Shown here piece by piece: positions 8,236 through 22,202 of a stretch of 64,000 nucleotides of DNA (the stretch's first letter is position 1; every line of letters begins with the position of its first letter). The stretch is from Phyllobacterium sp. 21LDTY02-6 (GTDB taxonomy: Bacteria; Pseudomonadota; Alphaproteobacteria; Rhizobiales; Rhizobiaceae): NCBI RefSeq assembly GCF_023554255.2, contig NZ_JAMJWD020000006.1, forward strand, positions 248,001 through 312,000, in the 5' to 3' direction. The position numbers and the translations under genes were made by a program. The notes under the pieces are model-generated. The model was not told the DNA's origin, ran no database searches, and was given only the letters and a program-made list of their open reading frames with translations.

Positions 8236-8398
8236 GCACTGCATCAAACATTGCGGCATCGAAGGCAGGCTCTTTTGGGCCGGATTTTTGCCTGCCGCCG
8301 ATGTGCGAACTTCATCATCCCATGTGAATTCGACAACAAGTGACGGTGGTTTCGCTGCGCCGCTCTCTTGACTCCGCAGCTTTTCACGCCGCAATGTA

Positions 8399-8417
8399 TT
8401 GTCTGACGTCTTACATA
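8399..8417. promoter_or_regulatory. Putative GntR-type operator upstream of the transporter operon
   Basis: TTGTCTGACGT (8399-8409) overlaps GTCTTACA (8408-8415). These resemble the two TTGTNNNACAA palindromes in the frl-like promoter region at 14350 and 14476, read on the other strand as TTGTCTTACAA and TTGTCTGACAA. The site lies 48-66 bases upstream of the GTG start at 8465. It would place the transporter under the same GntR regulator. This is a motif match by eye. Confidence 0.4.
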
Positions 8418-8464
8418 ACCACAAGAGAATGCGGGGAAGACGTTGCCAAAGAAGGAGGTCTCTC

Positions 8465-9292
8465 GTGAACAGTTTTCTCAAATTTGCAGTGGCAGGAGCA
8501 TTGGCTCTTGCGGCCTCGACGGCGGCCCACGCCGGCGCGACGCTCGATCGGGTCATGAGCAAGAAGGCAATGGTGGTCGCCACGAACAGCAGCTGGCCTC
8601 CCCAGAGCTATCTGGACGACAATAATGAAATGGTCGGGTTCGACATCGACATGGCCAAGGAAATCGGCAAGCGCCTGGGCGTCGAAGTCTCGTTCGAGAC
8701 GCCGGATTGGGCGACCCTGACGGGCGGCCGCTGGCAGGGACGCTATGATGTGGGCGTTGGTTCGGTAACGCCGACCAAGGCGCGCGCCAATGTCATCGAT
8801 TTCGCCTCGATCTATTATTACAGCCCCTATGTCTATGTCGTGCACAAGGACAGCAAGGCTGCTTCGGTCAACGATCTCAACGGAAAGGTGATCGGCGTCG
8901 AAACGGCGACGACCTCCGAGGATTTCATCCGCCGCCAGCTCGAGATCGATGCGCCGGGCCTGCCGCCGATCGAATACAAGATCGAGCCGGGCGAAGTGCG
9001 CACCTTTGCCGACTCCATGCTGCCTTTCGACGATCTGCGGCTTGGCGATGGCGTGCGCCTCGACGCGGTGATCGCGCCGGAACAGACTGCACAGAACGCC
9101 ATCAAGAACGGCTATCCGGTACGCATCATCGAAGGCGAATATGCCTTCCGCGAACCGCTGGTCGTGATCGCCGAAAAGGGCGATCCGGAATGGACCGCCA
9201 AGGTCGGCGAAACCATCGCGGCGATCAAGGCCGACGGTACCTTGGCCAAGCTGACCACCAAATGGTACGGCAAGGACTACAGCGCCAACTGA
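8465..9292 (+). CDS. Periplasmic polar amino-acid-type solute-binding protein
   Basis: A 275-residue family 3 (HisJ/GlnH-like) binding protein. The GTG start at 8465 is chosen because AAGGAGG precedes it with ideal spacing and it opens a clean signal peptide (VNSFLKFAVAGALALAAS, cleavage after AHA near residue 22). Family segments include MVGFDIDMAKEIGKRLGV and DVGVGSVTPTKAR. It begins an operon of binding protein, FAD oxidoreductase, permease and ATPase. The oxidase embedded in the operon suggests an amino-acid derivative as ligand; by context this may be a fructosyl amino acid or opine-like compound. That assignment is inference. Confidence 0.92.
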   Translation: MNSFLKFAVAGALALAASTAAHAGATLDRVMSKKAMVVATNSSWPPQSYLDDNNEMVGFDIDMAKEIGKRLGVEVSFETPDWATLTGGRWQGRYDVGVGSVTPTKARANVIDFASIYYYSPYVYVVHKDSKAASVNDLNGKVIGVETATTSEDFIRRQLEIDAPGLPPIEYKIEPGEVRTFADSMLPFDDLRLGDGVRLDAVIAPEQTAQNAIKNGYPVRIIEGEYAFREPLVVIAEKGDPEWTAKVGETIAAIKADGTLAKLTTKWYGKDYSAN

Positions 9293-9299
9293 TACATTT

Positions 9300-9328
9300 G
9301 AAGGGGGCGGCCGATGTCGCCCCTTTTC
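9300..9328 (+). terminator. Stem-loop after the binding-protein gene
   Basis: About eight bases after the binding-protein stop, AAGGGG pairs with CCCCTT, with an inner CG/CG pair set, one bulged G and an 8-base loop, ending in TTTT. It resembles a leaky terminator or stabilising hairpin between a binding protein and its downstream genes. It contains an ATG (9314) that mimics a start with a ribosome site, which is why 9359 is preferred for the next gene. Confidence 0.55.
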
Positions 9329-9358
9329 AATCGCCTTGCCGTGGGCCGCGAGAGATCA

Positions 9359-10642
9359 ATGACATATATAGATACGTTTTACCGCCGGACGCTTGCGGAC
9401 GATCGTTCCTTTCCGAAGCTCGATGGCATCATCGAATGCGACACGCTGATCGTTGGCGGCGGCCTTGCCGGCCTCACCGCCGCGTTGCAGCTCGCAAGAG
9501 CCGGCCAGTCGGTGGTGGTGCTCGAAGCGCAGCGCATCGGCTGGGGCGCCTCCGGCCGCAATGGCGGATTTGTCAGCCCGGGCTATGCCAATGGCGCCGA
9601 TGCGATCGAGCGTGCCGTCGGCGCCGATGCTGCCCGCAAGCTGCATGCGCTTTCGGTCGAAGGGATGTATTTCGTCCGCGATACGATCGCAGAATTGAAG
9701 ATTGCCGAGGCGGCGCCCGTCAACGGCATCATGAGCGTGTTGCGCTATCCCGATCCGGACGGGCTCAAGGCCTATGCCGAGAAGCTGCAGAAGAATTTCA
9801 ACTACAAGGTCGATTTCATGGAGTGCGACGAGGTGCGCCAGCGCCTGCGCTCCAATCGCTACTTCCAGGCGCTGCGCGACCCGCAGGCGTTCCACATACA
9901 TCCGCTGAACTATCTGCGTGCGCTCGCCCGCGAGATCGAGCGGCTCGGCGGCAGGATTTTCGAGCAGAGCGCGGCGGCATCGACCGATCTTTCCGGAGCC
10001 TCGAAGGTCGTGCGCACCGCCGCCGGTACGGTGAAAGCGCGCCGCCTGGTGTTGAGCACCGGCGGCTATACGACTTCGCTGATACCGAAGGTCGGCCGCA
10101 GCTTCCTGCCCATCGCCACCTATGTGATGCTTTCAGAAGAGGCGCCGGAACTGATCGCTTCCGCCATCGCGACCACCGATGCCATCGGCGACAACCGGCG
10201 GGCGGGCGATTATTACCGGGTGGTCGATGGCGGGCGCCGCCTGCTCTGGGGCGGCCGGATCACCACCAAGGCGGCTTCCGCCAGCGCCCTCGCCAATGAG
10301 CTGCGCCGGGAAATGACCACCACCTATCCTCAGCTGGCGCAATTGCGCACCGAAGTCGCCTGGTCGGGGCTGATGTCCTATGCGCGCCACCTCATGCCCC
10401 AGATCGGCCGGCTGCAGCCCGATGTGTGGTATTGCACGGCCTTTGGCGGACATGGGCTCAACACGACGGCGATCGGCGGAAAGCTGGTTGCCGAAGCCAT
10501 ACTCGGCCAGTCCGACCGCTATACGCTCTTCAACCCCTATGGCCTCGTCTGGGCCGGCGGCCTCGCCGGGCTCGCCACCGCCCAGCTGACCTACTGGAAA
10601 TTGCAGGCCCAGGACTGGTGGCGGGAGCGCCCCTATGTCTGA
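9359..10642 (+). CDS. FAD-dependent oxidoreductase (DAO family), amine/amino-acid oxidase type
   Basis: A 427-residue flavoprotein of the DAO/PuuB-OrdL family. The dinucleotide-binding motif VGGGLAGLTAALQLARAG begins at about residue 32, and the GWGASGRNGGFVSPG stretch is typical of gamma-glutamylputrescine oxidase-like proteins. A C-terminal FGGHGLNTTAIGG motif contacts FAD. Start 9359 (MTYIDTF) matches where the family begins; 9314 lies inside a stem-loop. The family oxidises secondary or primary amines on small amino-acid derivatives. Placed between the transporter genes and near FrlB/FrlD-like genes, it may be an Amadori-type or opine oxidase, but the substrate is not determined by sequence. 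Confidence 0.85.
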   Translation: MTYIDTFYRRTLADDRSFPKLDGIIECDTLIVGGGLAGLTAALQLARAGQSVVVLEAQRIGWGASGRNGGFVSPGYANGADAIERAVGADAARKLHALSVEGMYFVRDTIAELKIAEAAPVNGIMSVLRYPDPDGLKAYAEKLQKNFNYKVDFMECDEVRQRLRSNRYFQALRDPQAFHIHPLNYLRALAREIERLGGRIFEQSAAASTDLSGASKVVRTAAGTVKARRLVLSTGGYTTSLIPKVGRSFLPIATYVMLSEEAPELIASAIATTDAIGDNRRAGDYYRVVDGGRRLLWGGRITTKAASASALANELRREMTTTYPQLAQLRTEVAWSGLMSYARHLMPQIGRLQPDVWYCTAFGGHGLNTTAIGGKLVAEAILGQSDRYTLFNPYGLVWAGGLAGLATAQLTYWKLQAQDWWRERPYV

Positions 10643-10687
10643 GCCCAAGAGCCCCCTGTTCGAGCTTAAGAGAAGGAAACTTCGCTC

Positions 10688-11647
10688 ATGATCGCAACGT
10701 TTATCCTGTCGCATCCGAAGGCGACGAAGCGGATCGGCGGATCGGTTGCCATCGTGCTTTTGGCTGCCATGCTTTACTGGATGGGCGTGGGACCGGGCTG
10801 GCTGCAGCCATTCCTGCCCGGAGCCCTGCAATCCCCCGGGGCGTCGCGCGTCGCGGCCGCGATCGTGATCTCGCTGCTGATCGCGCTGAACTGGAAGGTG
10901 CTGGGCCTCCTGCCGCGGCTCTACCAGGTCGGCGCCGTCTGGGCCGAGCTATTCGCGCTCCTGCTGCTGTTCTTCTATTCGTTCAATCTCAGTTTCAGCT
11001 TCATCGCCAAGAAGATCGGGTTTCTCATCACGCAAGGCGTGGTGACGACGCTATATATTTCGGTGATCTCGATCGTCATCGCGACGATCATCGCGCTCAT
11101 CGGCGCAATCGCCAAACTGTCGAAGAACGGCGTCGTCTACGGCCTCGCCAGCTTTTACACCTCGCTCTTCCGCGGCCTGCCGCTCTTGATGCAGATCTAC
11201 ATCATCTATCTCGGACTGCCGCAGGTCGGCTATGTGATCGGCGCCATTCCGGCCGGCATCCTCGCGCTTTCGCTCTGCTACGGCGCCTATATGACGGAGA
11301 TCTTCCGCGCCGGCATCGAGAGCATCCCGAAGGGCCAGACCGAGGGCGCCACCGCGCTCGGCCTGCGGCCCAACCACACGATGTTCCTGGTGATCCTGCC
11401 GCAGGCGATGCGCGTCATCATTCCGCCGACGGGCAACCAGTTCATCGCCATGCTCAAGGATTCGTCGCTGGTCTCCGTCGTCGGCGTCTGGGAAATCATG
11501 TATCTGGCACGCACGATGGGCCAGAAGGAGTTCCGCCACATCGAGATGCTGATCACCGCATCCATGATCTACTGGCTGCTGTCCATCGCCCTTGAAATCA
11601 TCCAGGCCCGCATCGAGGAACGGTTCGGCCGTTCCCTGAAGCGCTGA
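10688..11647 (+). CDS. Polar amino-acid-type ABC transporter permease (HisM/GlnP family)
   Basis: A 319-residue inner-membrane permease. The N-terminal ~100 residues carry two or three hydrophobic segments (about 18-35, 55-72, 80-100) beyond the conserved domain. The conserved part starts at about residue 115 (TQGVVTTLYISVISIVIATI), and the EAA loop is YMTEIFRAGIESIPKGQTEGATALGL. The family normally works as a heterodimer (HisQM) or homodimer (GlnP). Only one permease gene is present, so a homodimer is expected. It starts 45 bases after the oxidoreductase and 18 bases before the ATPase gene. Confidence 0.92.
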   Translation: MIATFILSHPKATKRIGGSVAIVLLAAMLYWMGVGPGWLQPFLPGALQSPGASRVAAAIVISLLIALNWKVLGLLPRLYQVGAVWAELFALLLLFFYSFNLSFSFIAKKIGFLITQGVVTTLYISVISIVIATIIALIGAIAKLSKNGVVYGLASFYTSLFRGLPLLMQIYIIYLGLPQVGYVIGAIPAGILALSLCYGAYMTEIFRAGIESIPKGQTEGATALGLRPNHTMFLVILPQAMRVIIPPTGNQFIAMLKDSSLVSVVGVWEIMYLARTMGQKEFRHIEMLITASMIYWLLSIALEIIQARIEERFGRSLKR

Positions 11648-11665
11648 TCGGAGACGACAGAACTC

Positions 11666-12418
11666 ATGACCCAGCCTGCTCCTGCAAGTGCCGAGATCGA
11701 GATGAAAGACGTCCATAAATGGTATGGAAGCTATCATGCGCTCGACGATATAAACCTGACGATTGCGCCGCGGGAGAAGGTGGTCCTGTGCGGACCGTCG
11801 GGCTCGGGCAAATCGACCCTGATCCGCTGCATCAACCGGCTGGAGACGCACCAATCGGGCAGGATCGTCGTCGGCGGCATCGAACTCAACGATGAAGAGG
11901 ACCGGATCGACGAGGTGCGGCGCGAGGTGGGGATGGTATTCCAGCACTTCAACCTGTTTCCGCATCTCACCATCCTGCAGAACTGCATCCTCGCCCCGCT
12001 ATGGGTTCGCAAGACGCCGAAGAAGCAGGCGATCGACCAGGCGATGCACTTTCTCGAACGCGTCCGGATTCCCGAGCAGGCGAACAAGTTTCCCGGCCAG
12101 CTTTCCGGCGGCCAGCAGCAACGGGTGGCGATTGCCCGGGCGCTCTGCATGAGCCCCCGGATCATGCTGTTCGACGAGCCGACATCGGCGCTTGATCCGG
12201 AAATGGTCAAGGAAGTGCTCGACACCATGGTTTCCCTCGCCAGGGAAGGCATGACGATGGTGTGCGTCACCCATGAAATGGGCTTTGCCCGCCAGGTGGC
12301 GGACCGGGTGATCTTCATGGATCAGGGGCGGATCGTCGAGGAAGGAAAACCGGCGGAATTCTTCGACAATCCGCAGAACGAGCGCAGCAAGCTGTTCCTC
12401 AGCCAGATATTGCACTAG
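11666..12418 (+). CDS. Polar amino-acid-type ABC transporter ATP-binding protein (GlnQ-like)
   Basis: A 250-residue ATPase. Walker [10 protein letters not shown] is at residues 43-51, the Q-loop at [12 protein letters not shown], the signature LSGGQQQR, Walker [10 protein letters not shown], and the switch histidine in VCVTHEM. Length and motifs match GlnQ/HisP. It is the last gene of the operon starting at 8465 and energises uptake through the permease immediately upstream. The next gene converges from the other strand 28 bases later. Confidence 0.94.
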
Positions 12419-12445
12419 GTTCCAGCCGGCGGCAGGTCGAGGCGG

Positions 12446-13258
12446 TCAGAGCCGGCGCGGTATTTGCCGGAAGCCGCCAAGATGGGTGCATGTGGCGGCC
12501 GCGGCATCGCGCCCGGCCTCAAGCCAGACGCGCAGATTGCCGCCCTCCCTGCTCCTTGCGGCGATGAAGCCGGCAATGAAGCTGTCGCCGGCGCCCGTGG
12601 TATCGACGACGTCGACCGGCTTGATGCCGATCTGGACGATCTCCTTGCCGTCGGATGCCAGCGAGCCGAGCGCGCCCATCGTCACCACCGCCAGGGCGGC
12701 GCCGCGCCGGTGGAACTCGGCTGCCATGTGCCGCGCTTCATCGGGGGAGCCGGCCGAGGCGAAGACGATGCCGAGGCCGGTCACGTCGAGATTTCGCGGA
12801 TCGGCATTGACGGAGACGTCCTGCGAGACGCTCGTGCCGCTTTGCGCCAGCGCCTGCCGAAGGGCGCCGCCATCGTCGAGCCAGCCGATATGGACATGGC
12901 GCATCTGCACCAGCACTGGGAGTTCGTCGGGCTCTGGCGCATAGCCCCGGCACGCACCGAACTCCTCGACGACAAAGACCCGTTCGCCCGCCTCGGTGAT
13001 GTCGATGTCGGTGAAGGCGGTAACGGCGGGCCGAATGGCCACATGGTCGGTATTGACGCTGTTCGCCGACAAGGCGTCGACGATATGCCGGCCATCGGCA
13101 TCATCGCCGATGGCGCCGAAATAGGCCGTCGGGCAGCCGAGCGCGGTCAACTGGACGGCGACATTGACGGCATTGCCGCCGGCGAAAGCCTCGCGCACCG
13201 GTGTTTGAAAGCGGTCGACGCAATTGTCGCCGACCGCTGCGAACTGGAAGGATCTCAT
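12446..13258 (-). CDS. PfkB-family carbohydrate kinase (FrlD-like)
   Basis: A 270-residue ribokinase-fold kinase. The N-terminal glycine motif is AGGNAVNVAVQL at 26-37. The C-terminal PfkB signature DTTGAGDSFIAGF holds the anion hole and catalytic Asp225. The short length and the adjacent FrlB-like SIS gene match the fructosamine 6-kinase FrlD, which phosphorylates fructosyl-amino acids at the sugar C6. Other PfkB kinases cannot be excluded from sequence alone. The gene follows the SIS gene on the same strand after about 50 bases, so both are probably transcribed from the promoter near 14340. Confidence 0.78.
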   Translation of the reverse strand: MRSFQFAAVGDNCVDRFQTPVREAFAGGNAVNVAVQLTALGCPTAYFGAIGDDADGRHIVDALSANSVNTDHVAIRPAVTAFTDIDITEAGERVFVVEEFGACRGYAPEPDELPVLVQMRHVHIGWLDDGGALRQALAQSGTSVSQDVSVNADPRNLDVTGLGIVFASAGSPDEARHMAAEFHRRGAALAVVTMGALGSLASDGKEIVQIGIKPVDVVDTTGAGDSFIAGFIAARSREGGNLRVWLEAGRDAAAATCTHLGGFRQIPRRL

Positions 13259-13308
13259 TCAGGCCTCAATACATGATGCAGCACCATGCGGGCTGACTGC
13301 GTCCATAA

Positions 13309-14322
13309 TCAATAGGCGACGCGCTTGTAATAGCGCCGCGTGGTCAGCGGATGATTGCGGATCACTTCCAGATGCGCGCTGACCCTTTCGAGGACGGCGG
13401 CGAGGACGACCGGCGAGACCAGGGCGCGCACTTCATCCGAGACGCCGGGAAGCGCGAAGGATGCCGTGTCGAGAACGAACAGCTTCTTCGTGTAGTTCGG
13501 CACGAAATTCTCCACCCTTTCGGCGAGCGGGCGGAACTTGTCCTCGCCCTTGAAGAGAATGACGCTGACATCGTCTTCGACGAGTTCAAGCGTGCCGTGG
13601 AAGAAATCCGAGGCATGCACGGGCCGCGTCCTGATCCACTGCATCTCCTCGAGAATGCACATGCCGTAATAATAGGCTTCCGGCCATACATTCCCGGCTC
13701 CGGCGATGATGTGGTAGTTCGACGCCGCAATCGCCTCGGCAAAACCACGCGCCTGGGGCTCGAAACCGCGCTTCACTTCGATCAGCAATTGCGGCAGCAG
13801 CGCGATCTCGGCAATGATCTGCTCGTAATTGGCGATTTCGCCACGGTGTTTCATGATGGAAAGCGCGACGAACAAGGATTGCAGGTAGAAGGATTCGCAG
13901 GACGTGTCGTCCTCGGCAAAATTGACGAAGGCGTGGTCGCCGCCCTTGCCTAGCGGCGTCTCGGCATGGCCGACAAGGGTCAGCACGGTTGCGCCGATCT
14001 GCTTCAGCTTCGCCAGCATCGCCACGCTTTCCTTGGTCGTTCCCGAGAGCGAAGGCATGACGACGATGGACTTGGCGGTGAGATTGGCCGAATTGGCGAG
14101 GATCAGTTCCGCCGGCAGATCGAGATAGGCCGGAAAGCGCGAGCTGCGCTGCAGGAGCTGGGCTGCCGGCTGCATCAATATGGCCGCGCCGCCCGTGCCA
14201 AGGAAGAAGACATTCTCCGCGCCTCTGTTCAGGCAATCGGCAATGACGGCATCGAAACGTGCCGCAAAGCCAGTCGCGCCCGACTGAATGCGAAGATATC
14301 TCTGTTCATCGAAGTTTAGCAT
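13309..14322 (-). CDS. SIS-domain deglycase (FrlB-like fructosamine-6-phosphate deglycase)
   Basis: A 337-residue protein with two SIS sugar-isomerase domains, the first near residues 35-170 and the second from about 200. Motifs include FFLGTGGAAIL, VVMPSLSGTTKE and the C-terminal RRYYKRVAY, which is close to the ending of FrlB proteins. FrlB splits fructosamine 6-phosphate into glucose 6-phosphate and an amino acid. The start is placed at 14322 (MLNFDEQRY). An upstream ATG at 14367 would put the operator at 14350-14360 inside the coding sequence. With the PfkB kinase gene it forms a two-step Amadori catabolic module. Specificity is inferred from the pairing. Confidence 0.78.
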   Translation of the reverse strand: MLNFDEQRYLRIQSGATGFAARFDAVIADCLNRGAENVFFLGTGGAAILMQPAAQLLQRSSRFPAYLDLPAELILANSANLTAKSIVVMPSLSGTTKESVAMLAKLKQIGATVLTLVGHAETPLGKGGDHAFVNFAEDDTSCESFYLQSLFVALSIMKHRGEIANYEQIIAEIALLPQLLIEVKRGFEPQARGFAEAIAASNYHIIAGAGNVWPEAYYYGMCILEEMQWIRTRPVHASDFFHGTLELVEDDVSVILFKGEDKFRPLAERVENFVPNYTKKLFVLDTASFALPGVSDEVRALVSPVVLAAVLERVSAHLEVIRNHPLTTRRYYKRVAY

Positions 14323-14349
14323 GACAATGTCTGGTCCCGGTTTGAAATG

Positions 14350-14360
14350 TTGTAAGACAA
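14350..14360. promoter_or_regulatory. TTGTNNNACAA palindrome, probable GntR operator (frl-like promoter)
   Basis: TTGTAAGACAA is an 11-base palindrome in the divergent gap between the FrlB-like gene and the GntR gene. It matches the general GT-N(3)-AC pattern of GntR-family operators. A second copy, TTGTCAGACAA, lies at 14476-14486. Their flanking positions on either side of the gap fit control of both directions by the adjacent GntR protein. Confidence 0.55.
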
Positions 14361-14475
14361 CTGACATCTAGGCCGCAGCTTGTCAAGCGGAAGTAGAGCG
14401 CCTTTTCGGCATATTGCGGCACTTGTCGGGGAAGCCTGGCGCCGCAGTCGCATGCCTGGCTTGACCTCGCAGGAT

Positions 14476-14486
14476 TTGTCAGACAA
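14476..14486. promoter_or_regulatory. TTGTNNNACAA palindrome, second GntR operator copy
   Basis: TTGTCAGACAA matches the copy at 14350-14360 in 10 of 11 positions. It is 29 bases upstream of the GTG start of the GntR gene at 14515. It probably mediates autoregulation. Confidence 0.55.
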
Positions 14487-14514
14487 GAAGAATGAACAAT
14501 TGCGAGGTATTGCC

Positions 14515-15246
14515 GTGGAAGAACCGTTGCGCGATTCAAGGACCCTTGTGGTGCGCTTGAGAGACCGGATTGCGGAACTCATCCGCGAGGAGGGCCTCGC
14601 CCCCGGCGACAAGCTGCCGACCGAATCGCAGCTGACCGAACGTTTCAAGGTCTCCCGTCCCGCACTCAGGGAAGCCCTGAAGCTGCTCGAGCAGGACAGT
14701 TTCATCTATGTCGAGCATGGGCGCGGGCGCTTCGTTTCGGCGATGTCCGCCGTGCATGTGGACCGGCCCATCACGGTGTTCGAGAGCGTCACGGACATGT
14801 CGCGGCAATACGGATATCGCACCAGCAACCGCATTCTCTCCATCAGCGAGGAAATCGCCGACAAGACCGTGGCCAGGCATCTGAAGCTCGATGCCGGCGA
14901 GCGGGTGATCCGGCTGGAACGGCTGCGCCTCGAGCGCGACACGCCAATCATGTATTGCCTCGACTATGTTCCGCGCACGATCATCCCCGAAAAGCTCTAT
15001 GATCTCGACTGGAGTGGATCGCTGCTCGACCTGTTGGAACGCTACAAGCAGCGCCCGCGCATGTCCGCGGCATCGGTGACCGCGGTGACGCTGCCGGAAG
15101 AAATCGTGGAGCGCCACGATCTGCGGGATTTCGGCCCTGCCCTGCTGATCACGGAAACGGCATATAATGACGCCGGCGCCCCCGTCGTCTACGCCGTCGA
15201 CTATCACCGCGGCAGCCATTTCACCTTCAGCCTCGTGCGCAAATAA
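14515..15246 (+). CDS. GntR-family regulator, HutC subfamily (FrlR-like)
   Basis: A 243-residue repressor. The GntR winged helix occupies residues about 10-75 (LAPGDKLPTESQLTERFKVSRPALREALKLLEQ), and the C-terminal UTRA ligand-binding domain follows, as in HutC/FrlR. Start GTG 14515 is chosen because GAGG lies seven bases upstream and because longer frames from 14380 would include the operator at 14476. UTRA regulators of this context usually sense a phosphorylated sugar intermediate. It is divergent from the FrlB/FrlD-like genes and followed after 18 bases by a SIS gene. Confidence 0.88.
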   Translation: MEEPLRDSRTLVVRLRDRIAELIREEGLAPGDKLPTESQLTERFKVSRPALREALKLLEQDSFIYVEHGRGRFVSAMSAVHVDRPITVFESVTDMSRQYGYRTSNRILSISEEIADKTVARHLKLDAGERVIRLERLRLERDTPIMYCLDYVPRTIIPEKLYDLDWSGSLLDLLERYKQRPRMSAASVTAVTLPEEIVERHDLRDFGPALLITETAYNDAGAPVVYAVDYHRGSHFTFSLVRK

Positions 15247-15264
15247 TCGCGGGAGGAGCAGCAC

Positions 15265-15786
15265 ATGCGGCCGCCGCCCTTGCAAACCGTCAGGGAAGAA
15301 CTGGATGCGGCGATGGCGCGCATCGATGAGACCGGCCTTGCGGCGCTGCAAGGCCTGTTCCAGGATTCGGCCAGGCGGATCTTCTTCTGCGGGCAAGGTC
15401 GTTCGGGGCTGGTGGCCGAGATGGCTGCGATGCGGTTCATGCACCTTGGCTACCGGGTCCACTTCGTCGGGGAGGCAACCGCTCCCTCGATTGCATCGGG
15501 CGATCTGATGATCGTCCTCTCGGCCTCGGGCGAAACCGCCACCACGATAGCGTTCGCCAGGATCGCGCGTTCCGAAGGTGCGCAAGTTGCGGGCCTGATG
15601 GGGAGAGCCGAAAGCACCCTCGCCCAATATTGCGATCCGCGCATCCTCGTGCCGGTGGCCGGCAGCCGCCAGTTCGGCGGCACGCTGTTCGAACAGAGCT
15701 GCCTGCTCATCCTCGACAGCATTGCGCTGGCCTTTTCGGACGGGCAGCACGATGCCATGCAGGCCCGTCACACCAATCTGCAATAG
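15265..15786 (+). CDS. SIS-domain protein, 6-phospho-3-hexuloisomerase-like (HxlB family)
   Basis: A 173-residue single SIS domain protein preceded by GGGAGGAGCAGCACATG. Motifs are FFCGQGRSGLVAEMAAMRF at about 35-53 and IVLSASGETATT, typical of HxlB. HxlB interconverts hexulose and fructose 6-phosphates in the ribulose monophosphate route. No hexulose-phosphate synthase (HxlA) lies nearby, so a different sugar-phosphate isomerisation within the fructosamine-like island is more likely. It is co-transcribed with the GntR gene (18-base gap). Confidence 0.82.
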   Translation: MRPPPLQTVREELDAAMARIDETGLAALQGLFQDSARRIFFCGQGRSGLVAEMAAMRFMHLGYRVHFVGEATAPSIASGDLMIVLSASGETATTIAFARIARSEGAQVAGLMGRAESTLAQYCDPRILVPVAGSRQFGGTLFEQSCLLILDSIALAFSDGQHDAMQARHTNLQ

Positions 15787-17174: not shown

Positions 17175-18527
17175 CTATTGCGATGCCGAGATCACCTGCC
17201 GCAGCGCCGACGAGAAGCGCATCTCGATCTCGTCGCGATGGACATGGCGGCCACCCGATACGAGCTTCCTGCCGCGCACCCAGACATCGTCTGGCTTGAC
17301 CGCATTGGCAAAAATCCAGGCATCGAGTGCCGCATCCCCCGCATAGACGTCCGCTACATCGGCGGAAAGGCTGACGAAACTGGCCGGCCTTCCGACTTCA
17401 AGGCCGCTCTCGGCGCCGAGCGCTGTGGTGCCGCCCCGCAATGCACCGTCGAAGAGCGCGCGGCCGGTAGAACCCGCCTGGCCCGCCATGACATTGCGCG
17501 AGCGGTGCAGCAGACGCTGCGAATATTCGAGCTGGCGCAACTCGTCCCCTATGCCGATCAGGACATTGGAATCCGAACCCACGCCATAGGCGCCGCCGGC
17601 GGCGGTGAACGCCGCGCCCGGAAATATCCCGTCGCCGAGATTGGCCTCCGTCACCGGGCAAAGCCCGGCTACCGCGCCGGATTGCGCCATGCGGCGGGTT
17701 TCGTCGGCGGTCATGTGGGTGGCATGGATGAGGCACCAGCCGGCATCGACAGCAACATGATCGAGCAGCCATTCCACCGGCCGTTTATCGGACCAGGCGA
17801 GGCAGTCGTCCACCTCCTTCACCTGCTCGGCGATATGAATATGCTTCGGGCCGTTTCCCGCCAATCGCGTCACCGCGGCAAGCTCGGCTTGCGTCACCGC
17901 GCGCAGGCTATGCGGCGCGACGCCGAGATTGGCTCCCGGCATGTCGCCGATTATCCGTTCACAGCGGGCGTAGAGCTTTTCGAAACTCGCCAGCGAATTG
18001 ACGAAGCGGCGCTGGCCTTCATTCGGGGCGGCGCCGCCGAAGGTGGAATGGGCATAGAATACCGGCAGCAGCGTCAAATCGATGCCGGTCTCGGCCGCCG
18101 CCCCGGCTATCCTCGCCGCCATTTCGGCAATGTCGCCATAGGGGCTTCCATCCAGATCATGGTGGAGATAGTGAAACTCGCCGACCCTGGTGAAGCCGGC
18201 TTCGAGCATTTCCACATAGAGCTGCGCTGCGAAGGCCTGCGCATGGTCCGGCGTCATGGATAGGGCGAAGCGATACATGATATCGCGCCAGCTCCAGAAA
18301 CTGTCCTCCCCCGCCCCGCGGGTTTCCGCCAGCCCGGCCATGCCGCGCTGGAACGCATGGCTGTGAAGGTTCGGCATTCCGGGAATGATGATTTCATGGC
18401 GTTCGTCGGCGGCGGAAGCAACGCCGTCAAGCTCCAGCGACTGGATGCCTCGATCGTCGAACGACACCCGCACATTGCTCTTCCAGCCGGTCGGCGTGAG
18501 GAGAGTCTTTGCAAATACGCTGGCCAT
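17175..18527 (-). CDS. hutF: Formimidoylglutamate deiminase
   Basis: A 450-residue amidohydrolase that deaminates N-formimino-L-glutamate to N-formylglutamate and ammonia, step four of the five-step histidine pathway. The metal motif is PGMPNLHSHAFQRGMAGL near residue 60. A distal HIAEQVKEVDDC segment with the zinc histidine near 230 and a later GSDSN aspartate complete the amidohydrolase core. The start at 18527 is set by CACGGGAGGAACC in front of ATG; a longer frame to 18605 would cross the HutC operator. It is divergent from hutI across an 86-base gap and works with hutG at 21399. Confidence 0.94.
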   Translation of the reverse strand: MASVFAKTLLTPTGWKSNVRVSFDDRGIQSLELDGVASAADERHEIIIPGMPNLHSHAFQRGMAGLAETRGAGEDSFWSWRDIMYRFALSMTPDHAQAFAAQLYVEMLEAGFTRVGEFHYLHHDLDGSPYGDIAEMAARIAGAAAETGIDLTLLPVFYAHSTFGGAAPNEGQRRFVNSLASFEKLYARCERIIGDMPGANLGVAPHSLRAVTQAELAAVTRLAGNGPKHIHIAEQVKEVDDCLAWSDKRPVEWLLDHVAVDAGWCLIHATHMTADETRRMAQSGAVAGLCPVTEANLGDGIFPGAAFTAAGGAYGVGSDSNVLIGIGDELRQLEYSQRLLHRSRNVMAGQAGSTGRALFDGALRGGTTALGAESGLEVGRPASFVSLSADVADVYAGDAALDAWIFANAVKPDDVWVRGRKLVSGGRHVHRDEIEMRFSSALRQVISASQ

Positions 18528-18569
18528 GGTTCCTCCCGTGACAGAAAAATCGTTTGCGTTGGGTTTAAT

Positions 18570-18583
18570 TATGTCTATACATA
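18570..18583. promoter_or_regulatory. HutC-type operator between hutF and hutI
   Basis: TATGTCTATACATA contains GTCTATAC, an exact fit to the GTMTAKAC core of HutC-subfamily GntR operators, with TAT/ATA extensions making a near-complete 14-base palindrome. It is central to the divergent hutF/hutI promoter region. A HutC regulator is encoded at 24469 at the end of the same locus, with urocanate as the usual inducer in the family. Confidence 0.75.
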
Positions 18584-18613
18584 TTGGAGGGAGAAGGAAA
18601 GGCACAAAGCTCG

Positions 18614-19864
18614 ATGGGTGGAGAGAATAATAGCGCAGATCCTGAGGTGGTTCCGGGACATTTGTGGCTGGGCGCCCGCCTTGCCACGCTCGAAGAGGGC
18701 AATGCCGAACCGATAGAAGACGGAGCCTTGCTGGTCAGGAACGGCGTGATCGCGTTCGCCGGGCCAAGGGCTGAGCTACCGGCCGATCTCGCCAAGGACG
18801 CTGCCATCACCGATGTGCAGGGCCGCCTCATCACCCCCGCCTTCATCGACTGCCACACCCACCTCGTCTATGGCGGCAACCGCGCACGCGAATTCGAGAT
18901 GCGGCTGGACGGCGCCAGCTATGAGGAGATCGCCCGCGCCGGCGGCGGCATCGTCTCTTCCGTCAAGGCCACGAACGAACTCGATGACGACGCGCTGACG
19001 GCCCAGGCCCTTCCGAGACTGGACGCGCTCCTGGCCGAAGGTGTCTCGACGGTCGAGATAAAGTCCGGCTACGGGCTCAACATCGAAGCCGAATTGAAGA
19101 TGCTTCGCGTGGCGCGTGGCCTGGCGCGGCATCGGCCGGTGCGCATAGTGACGAGCTATCTCGCCGCGCACGCCACGCCCCGCGAATATAAGGGAAGAGC
19201 GGACGACTATATCGCCGAAGTCGTCATCCCCGGCCTGACTGCTGCGCATGCGCAAGGTCTGGTCGACGCGGTCGACGGTTTCTGCGAAGGCATTGCATTC
19301 TCGACGGAGCAGATTGCGCGGGTATTCGACGAGGCGGCAAGGCTCGGCCTGCCGGTCAAGCTTCACGCCGAACAGCTCTCCAACCTTGGCGGCGCAAAGC
19401 TTGCCGCTTCCCATGGTGCACTCTCCGCCGACCACCTCGAATATCTGGATGATGAGGGCGCGCGCGCATTGGCGGATGCCGGAACCGTCGCCGTCCTGCT
19501 TCCGGGCGCCTTCTATGCGCTGCGCGAGGAGCGGGCCCCGCCGGTAGCGGCGCTGAGAAATGCCGGCGCGCGCATTGCCATCGCCACCGACAGCAACCCG
19601 GGAACATCCCCCCTCACCTCGCTTCTCCTGACGATGAACATGGCCTGCACGCTGTTCGGCCTGACCGTGGCGGAAGCACTGGCCGGGGTGACCCGCGAGG
19701 CGGCACGGGCGCTCCGCATTCTCGATCGGACAGGCACGCTCACAACGGGAAAATCCGCGGATTTCGCGGTCTGGAATGTCGAGCAGCCGGCAGAGCTTGC
19801 CTATCGGATCGGCTTCAATCCCCTGCATGAACGGATATTTCAAGGAAAGACGACCAACAGATGA
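18614..19864 (+). CDS. hutI: Imidazolonepropionase
   Basis: A 416-residue amidohydrolase that opens imidazolone-5-propionate to formiminoglutamate, step three of histidine degradation. The metal-binding motif [14 protein letters not shown] is near residue 80, later histidines sit in KLHAEQ and SADHLEY, and the conserved aspartate is in [14 protein letters not shown] 18614 is preferred. A TTG ten codons upstream (18584) overlaps the purine-rich ribosome-binding stretch GGAGGGAGAAGGAAAGG. It overlaps hutH by four bases and leads the hutIHGUDC operon. Confidence 0.94.
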
Positions 19865-21402
19865 CCGTCACACTTCAACCCGGCAATGTCCCGCTGGCTG
19901 TTCTTGCCGAGCTCTACTGGACCGGCGCTCCCGCCCGGCTCGATACTGCCTGCCATGCCGGCGTCAAAGCTGCCGCGCGCCGTATCGCCGAGATCGCCGC
20001 GGGGAACGCCCCCGTCTATGGCATCAATACCGGCTTCGGCAAGCTGGCTTCGATCAAGATCGAGGCTGCGGATGTCGCAACGCTTCAGCGCAACCTCATT
20101 CTCTCGCATTGCTGCGGCGTCGGCCAGCCGCTGACGGAAAATATCGTGCGGCTGATCATGGTGCTCAAGCTGATCTCCCTTGGCCGCGGCGCTTCCGGCG
20201 TCCGTATGGAACTGATCCGGCTGATCGAAGACATGCTTTCGAAGGGTGTCATTCCCGTCATACCCGAGAAGGGTTCGGTTGGTGCATCCGGCGATCTGGC
20301 GCCGCTGGCCCACATGGCCGCCGCGATGATCGGCGAAGGCGAAGTCGTCGTGGAGGGCGCCCGCATGGCAGCGCGCGACGGTCTCGCCAGGGCTGGCCTC
20401 ACGCCGGTGGTGCTTGCCGCAAAAGAGGGTCTGGCTCTGATCAACGGCACGCAGGTTTCGACGGCATTGGCGCTGGCGGGCCTGTTCCGCGCCCATCGTG
20501 CCGCACAGTCGGCACTGATCACCGGCGCCTTGTCGACCGATGCGGCGATGGGTTCGTCGGCGCCGTTCGAAGCCGAAATCCACACATTGCGCGGACATCG
20601 CGGCCAGATCGACACTGGCGCGGCGTTGCGGCGTCTCCTCGAAGGTTCGCCGATCCGCGCCAGCCATGTCGAAGGCGACGAGCGCGTGCAGGACCCCTAT
20701 TGCATTCGCTGCCAGCCGCAGGTCGATGGCGCATGCCTCGATCTGCTGCGAATGGCGGCGCGGACGCTCGAGATCGAAGCCAATGCCGTGACGGACAATC
20801 CGCTCGTCCTCAGCGATGGTGCGGTGGTTTCGGGCGGCAATTTCCACGCCGAGCCCGTTGCTTTCGCCGCCGACCAGATCGCCCTCGCCATCTGCGAGAT
20901 AGGATCGATCGCCCAGCGCCGGATTGCGTTGCTGGTCGATCCGACGCTGTCCTACGGCTTGCCGGCCTTCCTCGCCAAGAAACCCGGGCTGAATTCCGGC
21001 CTGATGATTGCCGAAGTCACCTCCGCCGCGCTCATGTCCGAGAACAAGCAGATGTCCCATCCTGCCTCCGTGGACTCGACGCCGACGTCCGCCAACCAGG
21101 AAGATCATGTCTCCATGGCCTGCCATGGGGCGCGGCGGCTGCTGCAGATGACGGAGAACCTCTTCGCCATCGTCGGCATCGAGGCATTGACCGCGGCACA
21201 GGGTATCGATTTGCGCGCGCCGCTGAAGACGAGCTCGGAGTTGACCAGTGCTCACACTGCGATCCGAAATACAGTGCCGGAGCTCGAGGAAGATCGCTAC
21301 ATGGCGAACGATCTGGCGGCCGCTTCCGAATTGATTGCTTCAGGCGCCCTCAACGCGGCAATATCCTCCGGCATCCTTCCAGAACTGGATACCGCACCAT
21401 GA
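19861..21402 (+). CDS. hutH: Histidine ammonia-lyase
   Basis: A 513-residue enzyme that converts L-histidine to urocanate and ammonia, step one of the pathway. The Ala-Ser-Gly triad that cyclises to the MIO cofactor is at residues 142-144 ([12 protein letters not shown]), with Ser143 in the position known for Pseudomonas HutH. The TDNPL and SAGNFHG-like ([10 protein letters not shown]) segments and a QEDHVSM loop are also present. Length and motifs are standard. It starts in the ATGA overlap with hutI and ends in an ATGA overlap with hutG, indicating translational coupling. Confidence 0.97.
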
Positions 21403-22202
21403 ATATGGTCGAGACGACACGCGGCTCTTCGCCGATCATCCTCGGATTTCCGCATACGGGCACCTTCGTGCCGGCCGATATCCAGGAGCGGCTCAACGAC
21501 AATGGCAGGCTGCTCGCCGATACGGACTGGCATATCGACAGGCTCTACAGCGACCTTCTTCCGAACGTCACGACGGTGCGGGCGGTATTTCATCGCTATG
21601 TGATCGACGCCAATCGCGATCCGCAAGGCGTCAGCCTCTATCCCGGCCAGAATACGACCGCGCTCATTCCCGAGACGGATTTCGACGGCAAGCCGATCTG
21701 GCGCAGCGGCGAACGGCCCACGGCGGCCGATACCAGAGCGCGCCTTGCGACCTATCATGCGCCCTATCATCAGGCATTGGCGCAGGAGATCGAGCGCGTT
21801 CATGCGGAGCACGGCCTGTGCATTCTCTATGATTGCCACTCCATACGCTCGCATATTCCGTTTCTGTTTCAGGGAAAACTTCCGGATTTCAATATCGGCA
21901 CGAATGAAGGCAAAAGCTGTTCCGCGGAGATCGCCTCCGCCGTCGGCCGCATCGTGTTTGCGGCACGGGGTTATGACGCGGTGATCAATGGCCGCTTCAA
22001 GGGCGGCTGGACCACGCGCCATTACGGCAATCCCGACAAGGGCGTGCACGCCATACAGATGGAGTTGACGCAATCGTCGCATCTCGGCACCGAAGCGCCG
22101 CCCTTCGACTATGACGAGGGCAAGGCGGAACGGCTGCGCCGGCATTTGCGCGACATTCTGGAAATTCTCGAACAGACAGCAATAAAGCTGGGGAGCAGAT
22201 GA
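21399..22202 (+). CDS. hutG: N-formylglutamate deformylase
   Basis: A 267-residue amidohydrolase of the N-formylglutamate amidohydrolase family. It hydrolyses N-formylglutamate to glutamate and formate, the final step of the HutF route. Recognisable blocks are [12 protein letters not shown] near residue 15, a [10 protein letters not shown] segment, and [13 protein letters not shown] near residue 145. The gene overlaps hutH by four bases at its start and hutU by four at its end. A much longer open frame covering it begins inside hutI but is not coding there. Confidence 0.95.

Follow-up and report, generated by a model that had tools for sequence, protein, structure and literature searches.

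A probable GntR-controlled regulon for sugar-amine catabolism with its own importer and a PuuB-like amine oxidase in Phyllobacterium

Amadori compounds of plants and opines are nutrients of root bacteria and, to our knowledge, the known routes are either amadoriases or kinase/deglycase pairs. The frl systems (frlABCD-frlR in Escherichia coli, frlBONMD in Bacillus subtilis) bring together a PfkB kinase, a SIS deglycase and a GntR-type regulator. The soc operon of pAtC58, which we take to serve the catabolism of santhopine and Amadori opines, combines an amino-acid-type ATP-binding cassette (ABC) importer with a DAO-family flavin adenine dinucleotide (FAD) enzyme in one operon; it has a LacI regulator, and no kinase or deglycase is annotated beside it. 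PuuB is the gamma-glutamylputrescine oxidase of E. coli. The Gfr system of Salmonella handles fructose- and glucoselysine, and its substrates are phosphorylated by a phosphotransferase system (PMC12675984). Here we analyse a locus at positions 8,399 to 15,786 of a 64,000-nucleotide stretch (the window) from the 4.6-Mb genome of Phyllobacterium sp. 21LDTY02-6 (contig NZ_JAMJWD020000006.1, positions 248,001 to 312,000), which holds genes resembling parts of several of these systems.

Like frl, the locus combines a PfkB kinase, a predicted SIS deglycase and a GntR-type regulator. In contrast to frl, its importer is an amino-acid-type ABC system, the transporter operon includes a PuuB-like FAD enzyme, the GntR gene is divergent from the SIS gene and there are three matching predicted operators. 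With soc it shares an amino-acid-type importer and a DAO-family FAD enzyme in one operon and an origin in plant-associated Hyphomicrobiales, but SocD matches over the FAD motif only and SocA is 22% identical to the window protein. It differs from Gfr in that phosphorylation would fall to a kinase. Gene content, linkage and operators, which can be read from the DNA itself, make it probable that the locus is a single GntR-controlled regulon for the catabolism of sugar-amines (Amadori type) that covers import, kinase, deglycase and amine oxidation.

Results

A binding protein, the FAD enzyme, a permease and an ATPase form a plus-strand operon, which the PfkB and SIS genes face from the minus strand; the GntR/UTRA gene diverges from SIS, with an HxlB-like gene behind it. 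A Pfam search confirmed all eight genes of the sequence-only reading, the earlier interpretation of this DNA from its letters and open reading frames, at their positions and with their domains (SBP_bac_3, DAO, BPD_transp_1, ABC_tran, PfkB, SIS, GntR+UTRA and SIS). That reading had also placed related motifs in the SIS-GntR divergent promoter and before the transporter. With the longest open reading frames the motifs would lie within genes or at gene starts. All four annotated relatives have a 1014-bp SIS gene and a 732-bp GntR gene, which puts the starts in the window at 14322 and 14515, and the binding-protein gene starts at a GTG at 8465 that was read from the sequence, with AAGGAGG just upstream. 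With these corrected starts all three motifs are intergenic: two copies of TTGTNNNACAA (14350 and 14476, against 0.18 expected in the window) lie in the 192-bp gap between SIS and GntR, and TTGTCTGACGT at 8399-8409 and GTCTTACA at 8408-8415 lie before the transporter.

The core proposed for these sites, GTCTKACA, is present at the claimed promoters, but the 8-mer is unspecific by itself, with five copies in the window against 1.39 expected, two of them away from the three promoters. A loose palindrome was not enriched genome-wide either (19 places against 55 for the reversed control). Alignment of relatives' promoters, the window sites among them, gave a 16-bp extended operator, TGTMWGACRWCTKACA, which is common to the SIS-side and transporter sites and resembles an inverted repeat (TGTMWG-ACRW-CTKACA). 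In the whole genome its only exact matches are at 8400-8415 and 14351-14366 of the window, and one further place, outside the locus, matches with one mismatch. Chance as an explanation of the motif was rejected: the loose palindrome and the 8-mer are unspecific, but the extended operator is specific.

Conservation of the motif near orthologues is extensive. Among 18 divergent promoters (the window, four plasmid records and 13 further genomes), 16 have an exact TTGTAAGACAA on the SIS side and 15 an exact TTGTCAGACAA on the GntR side, and flanks and distances to the start codons vary. A larger, SIS-anchored set consists of the best 80 of 330 SIS-protein matches and totals 1.37 Mb. Here the extended operator is exact in 67 of 71 divergent promoters, so that, as in frl-type systems, a GntR/UTRA gene goes with conserved sites in the catabolic promoter; it is also exact in 62 of 69 transporter promoters (66 with one mismatch allowed), and the reversed pattern has no match in the 1.37 Mb. 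Since the operator was derived partly from window sites, we left out the 10 loci that sat on contigs which, judged by their length, had been used in its derivation. In the 70 remaining loci, which form an independent test, it is exact in 57 of 61 SIS-GntR promoters and 53 of 59 transporter promoters, whereas shuffled versions of these stretches gave a mean of 0.0. For the short form TTGTMAGACAW, 33 of 57 exact genome-wide matches in 13 genomes with the GntR gene fall in this locus. The site next to GntR was not found in nine of the 11 SIS-anchored loci titled Mesorhizobium, and the divergent promoters of four other loci (L160, L162, L164 and L165) have no extended operator, three of which (L160, L164 and L165) have simpler sites of the same type.

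TTGAC boxes upstream of all three genes are conserved in the alignment of relatives' promoters. By spacing, each predicted operator would overlap a promoter spacer, a -10 region or a transcription start (Table 1), which fits repression. The claim that one regulator serves three promoters is thus strongly supported by the conserved operators of relatives, and very probably one GntR repressor controls all three.

The two modules, transporter-oxidase and kinase/deglycase, are also physically linked in relatives, as had been proposed. In an unanchored sample of 199 genomes of the family, the window's own included, SIS proteins of at least 72% identity occur in 12, all of which have an oxidase orthologue in the same locus. 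Seven weaker SIS matches (53-66%) have no oxidase orthologue at the locus, and four of these have another DAO-family gene nearby (25-27% identity). In the SIS-anchored set, oxidase, binding protein and permease are present in 70 of the 80 loci, the kinase in 76, GntR in 73 and all of them in 69. The transporter operon is found now on one side of the SIS module, now on the other, and its orientation also changes, which means that the linkage has been kept despite changes of order.

Oxidase orthologues of at least 63% identity were found in 19 genomes, seven of which have no SIS at the locus. One of the seven (L053) has GntR and a kinase remnant, which indicates that SIS was lost there, and its transporter site is retained, with the short form TTGTCAGACAT exact and the extended form with one change. 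In the fetched stretches of the other six, GntR, kinase and SIS are all missing, and the 320 bp before the binding-protein gene contain no operator even when three mismatches are tolerated (0 of 6). Hence, the operator follows GntR. In an oxidase tree of 46 rows picked from those listed for the loci and built with a quick method, unlinked oxidases are scattered among linked ones (five changes, at least three of them forced by well-supported branches), so the transporter-oxidase pair can stand alone. The stand-alone operons L052 and L054-L058 have the order binding protein, oxidase, permease, with no window-type ATPase gene directly adjoining.

Fructoselysine 6-kinase is the best NCBIfam match of the PfkB protein, and a DTxGAGD-type motif occurs in 90 of 93 kinase homologues. 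For the SIS protein the best NCBIfam match is fructoselysine 6-phosphate deglycase. Its full-length PDB matches are led by 2a3n (1e-62), which we assume to be a Salmonella Gfr-type protein, and include 3eua (1e-42), titled putative fructose-aminoacid-6-phosphate deglycase and presumably B. subtilis FrlB. EEMQW-x12-H, whose E and H we take to be the catalytic pair, is present in 97 of 97 SIS rows. Within the genus, SIS matches occur in eight of 20 genomes, two of the window type (the window and G201) and six of a cousin type at 56-58% identity. Near the SIS gene of all six cousin loci lie a PfkB gene and a DAO-family FAD gene, and in four of them SocA, SocB and SocD orthologues lie just beside the SIS and PfkB genes. 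Taken together, the likeness to FrlB and FrlD and the soc operons beside cousin loci favour an Amadori-type substrate, and such substrates are likely for this SIS family. The FrlB/FrlD chemistry read into the locus is a candidate assignment supported by homology and by the soc neighbourhood at four of six cousin loci, with both proteins scoring below the NCBIfam cut-offs.

Two further observations concern soc genes in the genus. In the cousin loci L067-L070, from other species, the SIS deglycase, PfkB, an FAD enzyme and a LacI-type regulator directly adjoin a soc operon with SocD, so that the genes of the two routes, by amadoriase and by deglycase, are neighbours; in L067 a sugar-type ABC transporter lies between them. 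The window's own genome carries, on another contig, a separate soc-like operon (L167, G000:C6:70000-88000) with SocR at 60%, SocA at 73%, SocB at 83% and SocD at 64% identity and another PfkB-like gene close by; no SocC match was found there at 1e-25.

The oxidase is 33.5% identical to E. coli PuuB over 376 amino acids (E 1e-66), which is near full-length, and ASGRNGG (A79-G85) is invariant in 39 of 39 rows of its family and also present in PuuB. PuuB is the nearer of two characterised enzymes compared, the other being SocD; L-pipecolate oxidase (AmaA), which was not compared directly, is the best NCBIfam match, at 155.3 bits against a cut-off of 600. An assignment as a SocD-type amadoriase was rejected, given that only 39 residues, the FAD-binding stretch, align to SocD of C58 and a tree separates the two; AgaE was not part of this comparison. 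Despite the likeness to PuuB, the neighbours of the oxidase are not puu-type genes, and gene context lends no support to gamma-glutamylputrescine as its substrate. An AlphaFold2 model (predicted local distance difference test, pLDDT, 88.7) is nearest to the glycine/sarcosine oxidase fold and has a C-terminal helix. The FAD enzyme of the cousin locus L067 is PuuB-like as well (30% over 398 amino acids) and not SocD-like, and it is 25% identical to the window oxidase.

The modelled binding protein (pLDDT 87.9) has amino-acid binders as its nearest solved structures (lysine-analogue/ornithine, cystine, arginine and glutamine), with the opine-binding NocT lower among the matches, and these matches do not name the substrate. 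Its R107 and D189/D190 are invariant in 30 of 30 rows; judging from the family, we take them to contact the amino-acid backbone. Within the genus, a stand-alone locus has a binding protein that shares 91% identity with that of the window.

In the mechanism that we infer, from repression and its inducer to the substrate and the stage at which the oxidase acts, the GntR repressor would be bound to operators that overlap the three promoters. The ABC system would take up an amino-acid-like compound, the PfkB kinase would phosphorylate its sugar part, and the SIS deglycase would split the phosphorylated compound, yielding a hexose 6-phosphate and an amino compound. An amine would then be oxidised by the PuuB-like FAD enzyme, which most likely acts on the amino compound, whether released or imported alongside, and not on the sugar-amine bond. 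We prefer this sequential order in view of the likeness of the oxidase to PuuB and of its presence, together with the transporter, in loci that have no deglycase. Repression at all three promoters would probably be relieved by the kinase product, a phosphorylated sugar-amine. The analogy is with FrlR of E. coli and B. subtilis, a GntR-type repressor that has been proposed to sense phosphorylated Amadori compounds (PMC12632257).

Features outside this scheme include the HxlB-like isomerase gene, which the sequence-only reading had counted as part of the system. It lies 18 bp behind GntR, a position found only in the window among the loci examined; the sole HxlB match in the 80 SIS-anchored loci is in L156 (47%, 4.7 kb from SIS), and there is none in two other locus sets examined. 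Membership of the system is therefore not supported for this gene. Further downstream, hutF-, hutI-, hutH- and hutG-like genes (histidine utilisation) occupy 17175-22202 of the window, with no tie to the GntR operator seen, and GntR as a HutC for them was rejected (62.3 bits against an NCBIfam cut-off of 220). Two relatives have a DMT-family transporter gene between permease and ATPase (L020:13553-14434 and L023:10742-11626) that is missing in the window. Elsewhere in the window's genome, two operator-like sites 258 bp apart (L082:7756-8024, G000:C6:129255-129523) stand before an M20 peptidase/ABC transporter operon, which a DAO-family FAD gene faces. One of them (C6:129507) is the extended operator with one mismatch and may mark a further regulon member; a comparison with the other 19 genomes of the genus at E 1e-60 gave no match to the M20 peptidase. 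Other genome copies of the short motif that were examined include a gene start coding for LSDK (L083) and a site near another GntR-type gene (L084).

Table 1 Positions of genes, predicted operators and putative promoter boxes in the window
Feature	Positions	Strand	Basis or remark
Putative -35 TTGACT, transporter promoter	8368..8373	+	17 bases before a weak -10 at 8391-8396; tTGac column kept in relatives; spacing inferred
Predicted operator A TTGTCTGACGTCTTACAT (core 8400-8415)	8399..8416	+	Before transporter-oxidase operon, 49-66 bases upstream of GTG 8465
Solute-binding protein, polar amino acid type (SBP_bac_3), GTG start	8465..9292	+	Pfam
FAD amine oxidoreductase, DAO family, PuuB-like	9314..10642	+	Pfam DAO, 203 bits
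ABC permease, amino-acid-type	10688..11647	+	Pfam, NCBIfam
ABC ATPase, amino-acid-type	11666..12418	+	Pfam, NCBIfam
PfkB kinase, FrlD-like	12446..13258	-	NCBIfam best match fructoselysine 6-kinase, below cut-off; 34.7% identical to E. coli FrlD
SIS-domain deglycase, FrlB/Gfr-like	13309..14322	-	PDB matches 2a3n, 3eua; EEMQW-x12-H motif
Predicted operator B TTGTAAGACAACTGACAT (core 14351-14366)	14350..14367	+	Covers -10 region of SIS promoter
Putative -35 TTGACA, SIS-PfkB promoter	14381..14386	-	gtCAa column conserved; inferred
Putative -35 TTGACC, GntR promoter	14461..14466	+	cttgaCc column conserved; inferred
Predicted operator C TTGTCAGACAA, single site	14476..14486	+	Between -35 and -10 of GntR promoter
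GntR/UTRA regulator, GTG start, proposed repressor of all three promoters	14515..15246	+	Pfam GntR+UTRA
HxlB-like sugar-phosphate isomerase, probably not a core part	15265..15786	+	RuMP_HxlB 151.8 bits, NCBIfam equivalog-domain cut-off of 160 missed

Discussion

Several observations weigh against a single sugar-amine regulon. The NCBIfam scores of kinase and deglycase lie below their cut-offs (155.7 against 247 bits and 86.3 against 430 bits), and the identities to E. coli FrlB (24.5%) and FrlR (21.1%) are low. One locus with a weaker SIS match (L038, 65-66%) has GntR and PfkB and no such oxidase, and 10 of the 80 SIS-anchored loci show no oxidase, five of these being stretches of less than 12 kb. 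L160 and the Microvirga loci L162 and L164 keep the genes without an extended operator at the transporter, and taking the best 80 of 330 matches over-represents close relatives. FrlR of B. subtilis has in addition been described as an activator (PMC12632257).

The sequence-only reading raised the possibility of a double route in the locus. In such a route the FAD enzyme would oxidise, to glucosone and a free amino acid, the same imported fructosamine that the kinase/deglycase pair splits into hexose 6-phosphate and an amino acid. Amadoriase and deglycase genes do adjoin each other in the cousin loci L067-L070, transporter and oxidase form a unit without deglycase in several branches, and the 91% identity of the stand-alone binding protein means that its substrate may be the same as in the window. 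However, the oxidase is unrelated to SocD beyond the FAD-binding stretch, the nearer PuuB acts on gamma-glutamylputrescine, and the genome carries a SocD orthologue already, in its soc operon. An oxidase that is not SocD-like and survives without the deglycase leaves a double route on one fructosamine unproven; as originally written it is not supported, we consider it unlikely, and oxidation of a released or co-imported amine fits the sequence data better. It is likewise improbable, in our view, that amino-compound uptake and oxidation and sugar-amine catabolism are two separate pathways that share a control only because both substrates are met in the same places, such as root exudates or decaying plant matter. 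The modules are separable both ways, with oxidases lacking SIS and SIS loci lacking the oxidase (L140 and L148, for example), but no exact extended operator stands before any other transporter in the genome, the one-mismatch copy before the M20 peptidase/ABC operon being the nearest to it, and the kinase/deglycase pair would thus be left without a co-regulated importer of its own.

Rather less credence goes to an N-glucosyl (Heyns) product or another N-substituted hexosamine, and not a fructosamine, as the substrate of the kinase/deglycase pair. The SIS protein is nearer to 2a3n and 8glr than to 3eua, and the Gfr system that it resembles takes glucoselysine as well, but the best match of the kinase is a fructoselysine 6-kinase. 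The resemblance is in any case not decisive, given that text and figure legend conflict on the substrates of the Gfr deglycases in PMC12675984. That the motif belongs to an unlinked regulator and not to the neighbouring GntR is very improbable: a TTGTCTGACAA site does lie near the other GntR-type gene in L084 (its family was read by eye), but the operator tracks GntR, being kept in L053 and absent from all six oxidase loci without the GntR/SIS module, and the promoter of GntR itself has a site. The single GntR-controlled regulon for sugar-amine catabolism is hence the reading that we retain.

Among the literature matches listed, in open-licence papers, we did not recognise an arrangement of this kind in rhizobia. 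More tentatively, it is possible that throughout Hyphomicrobiales a single repressor links sugar-amine deglycation with a PuuB-like amine oxidase served by the same importer, with deglycation feeding amine oxidation or with two parallel routes for one compound. If true, the pairing of a deglycase with an amine oxidase would be a pathway logic that recurs, given that the cousin lineage has a different DAO-family enzyme nearby in six of six loci, PuuB-like in L067, and we know of no such logic in the frl, fra, gfr or soc schemes. A defined operator and regulator and a short list of substrates make the role of the oxidase directly testable. To the two ways of using these compounds that we know of, a widespread regulon combining a deglycase, an amine oxidase from a different family and an importer of its own would add a third.

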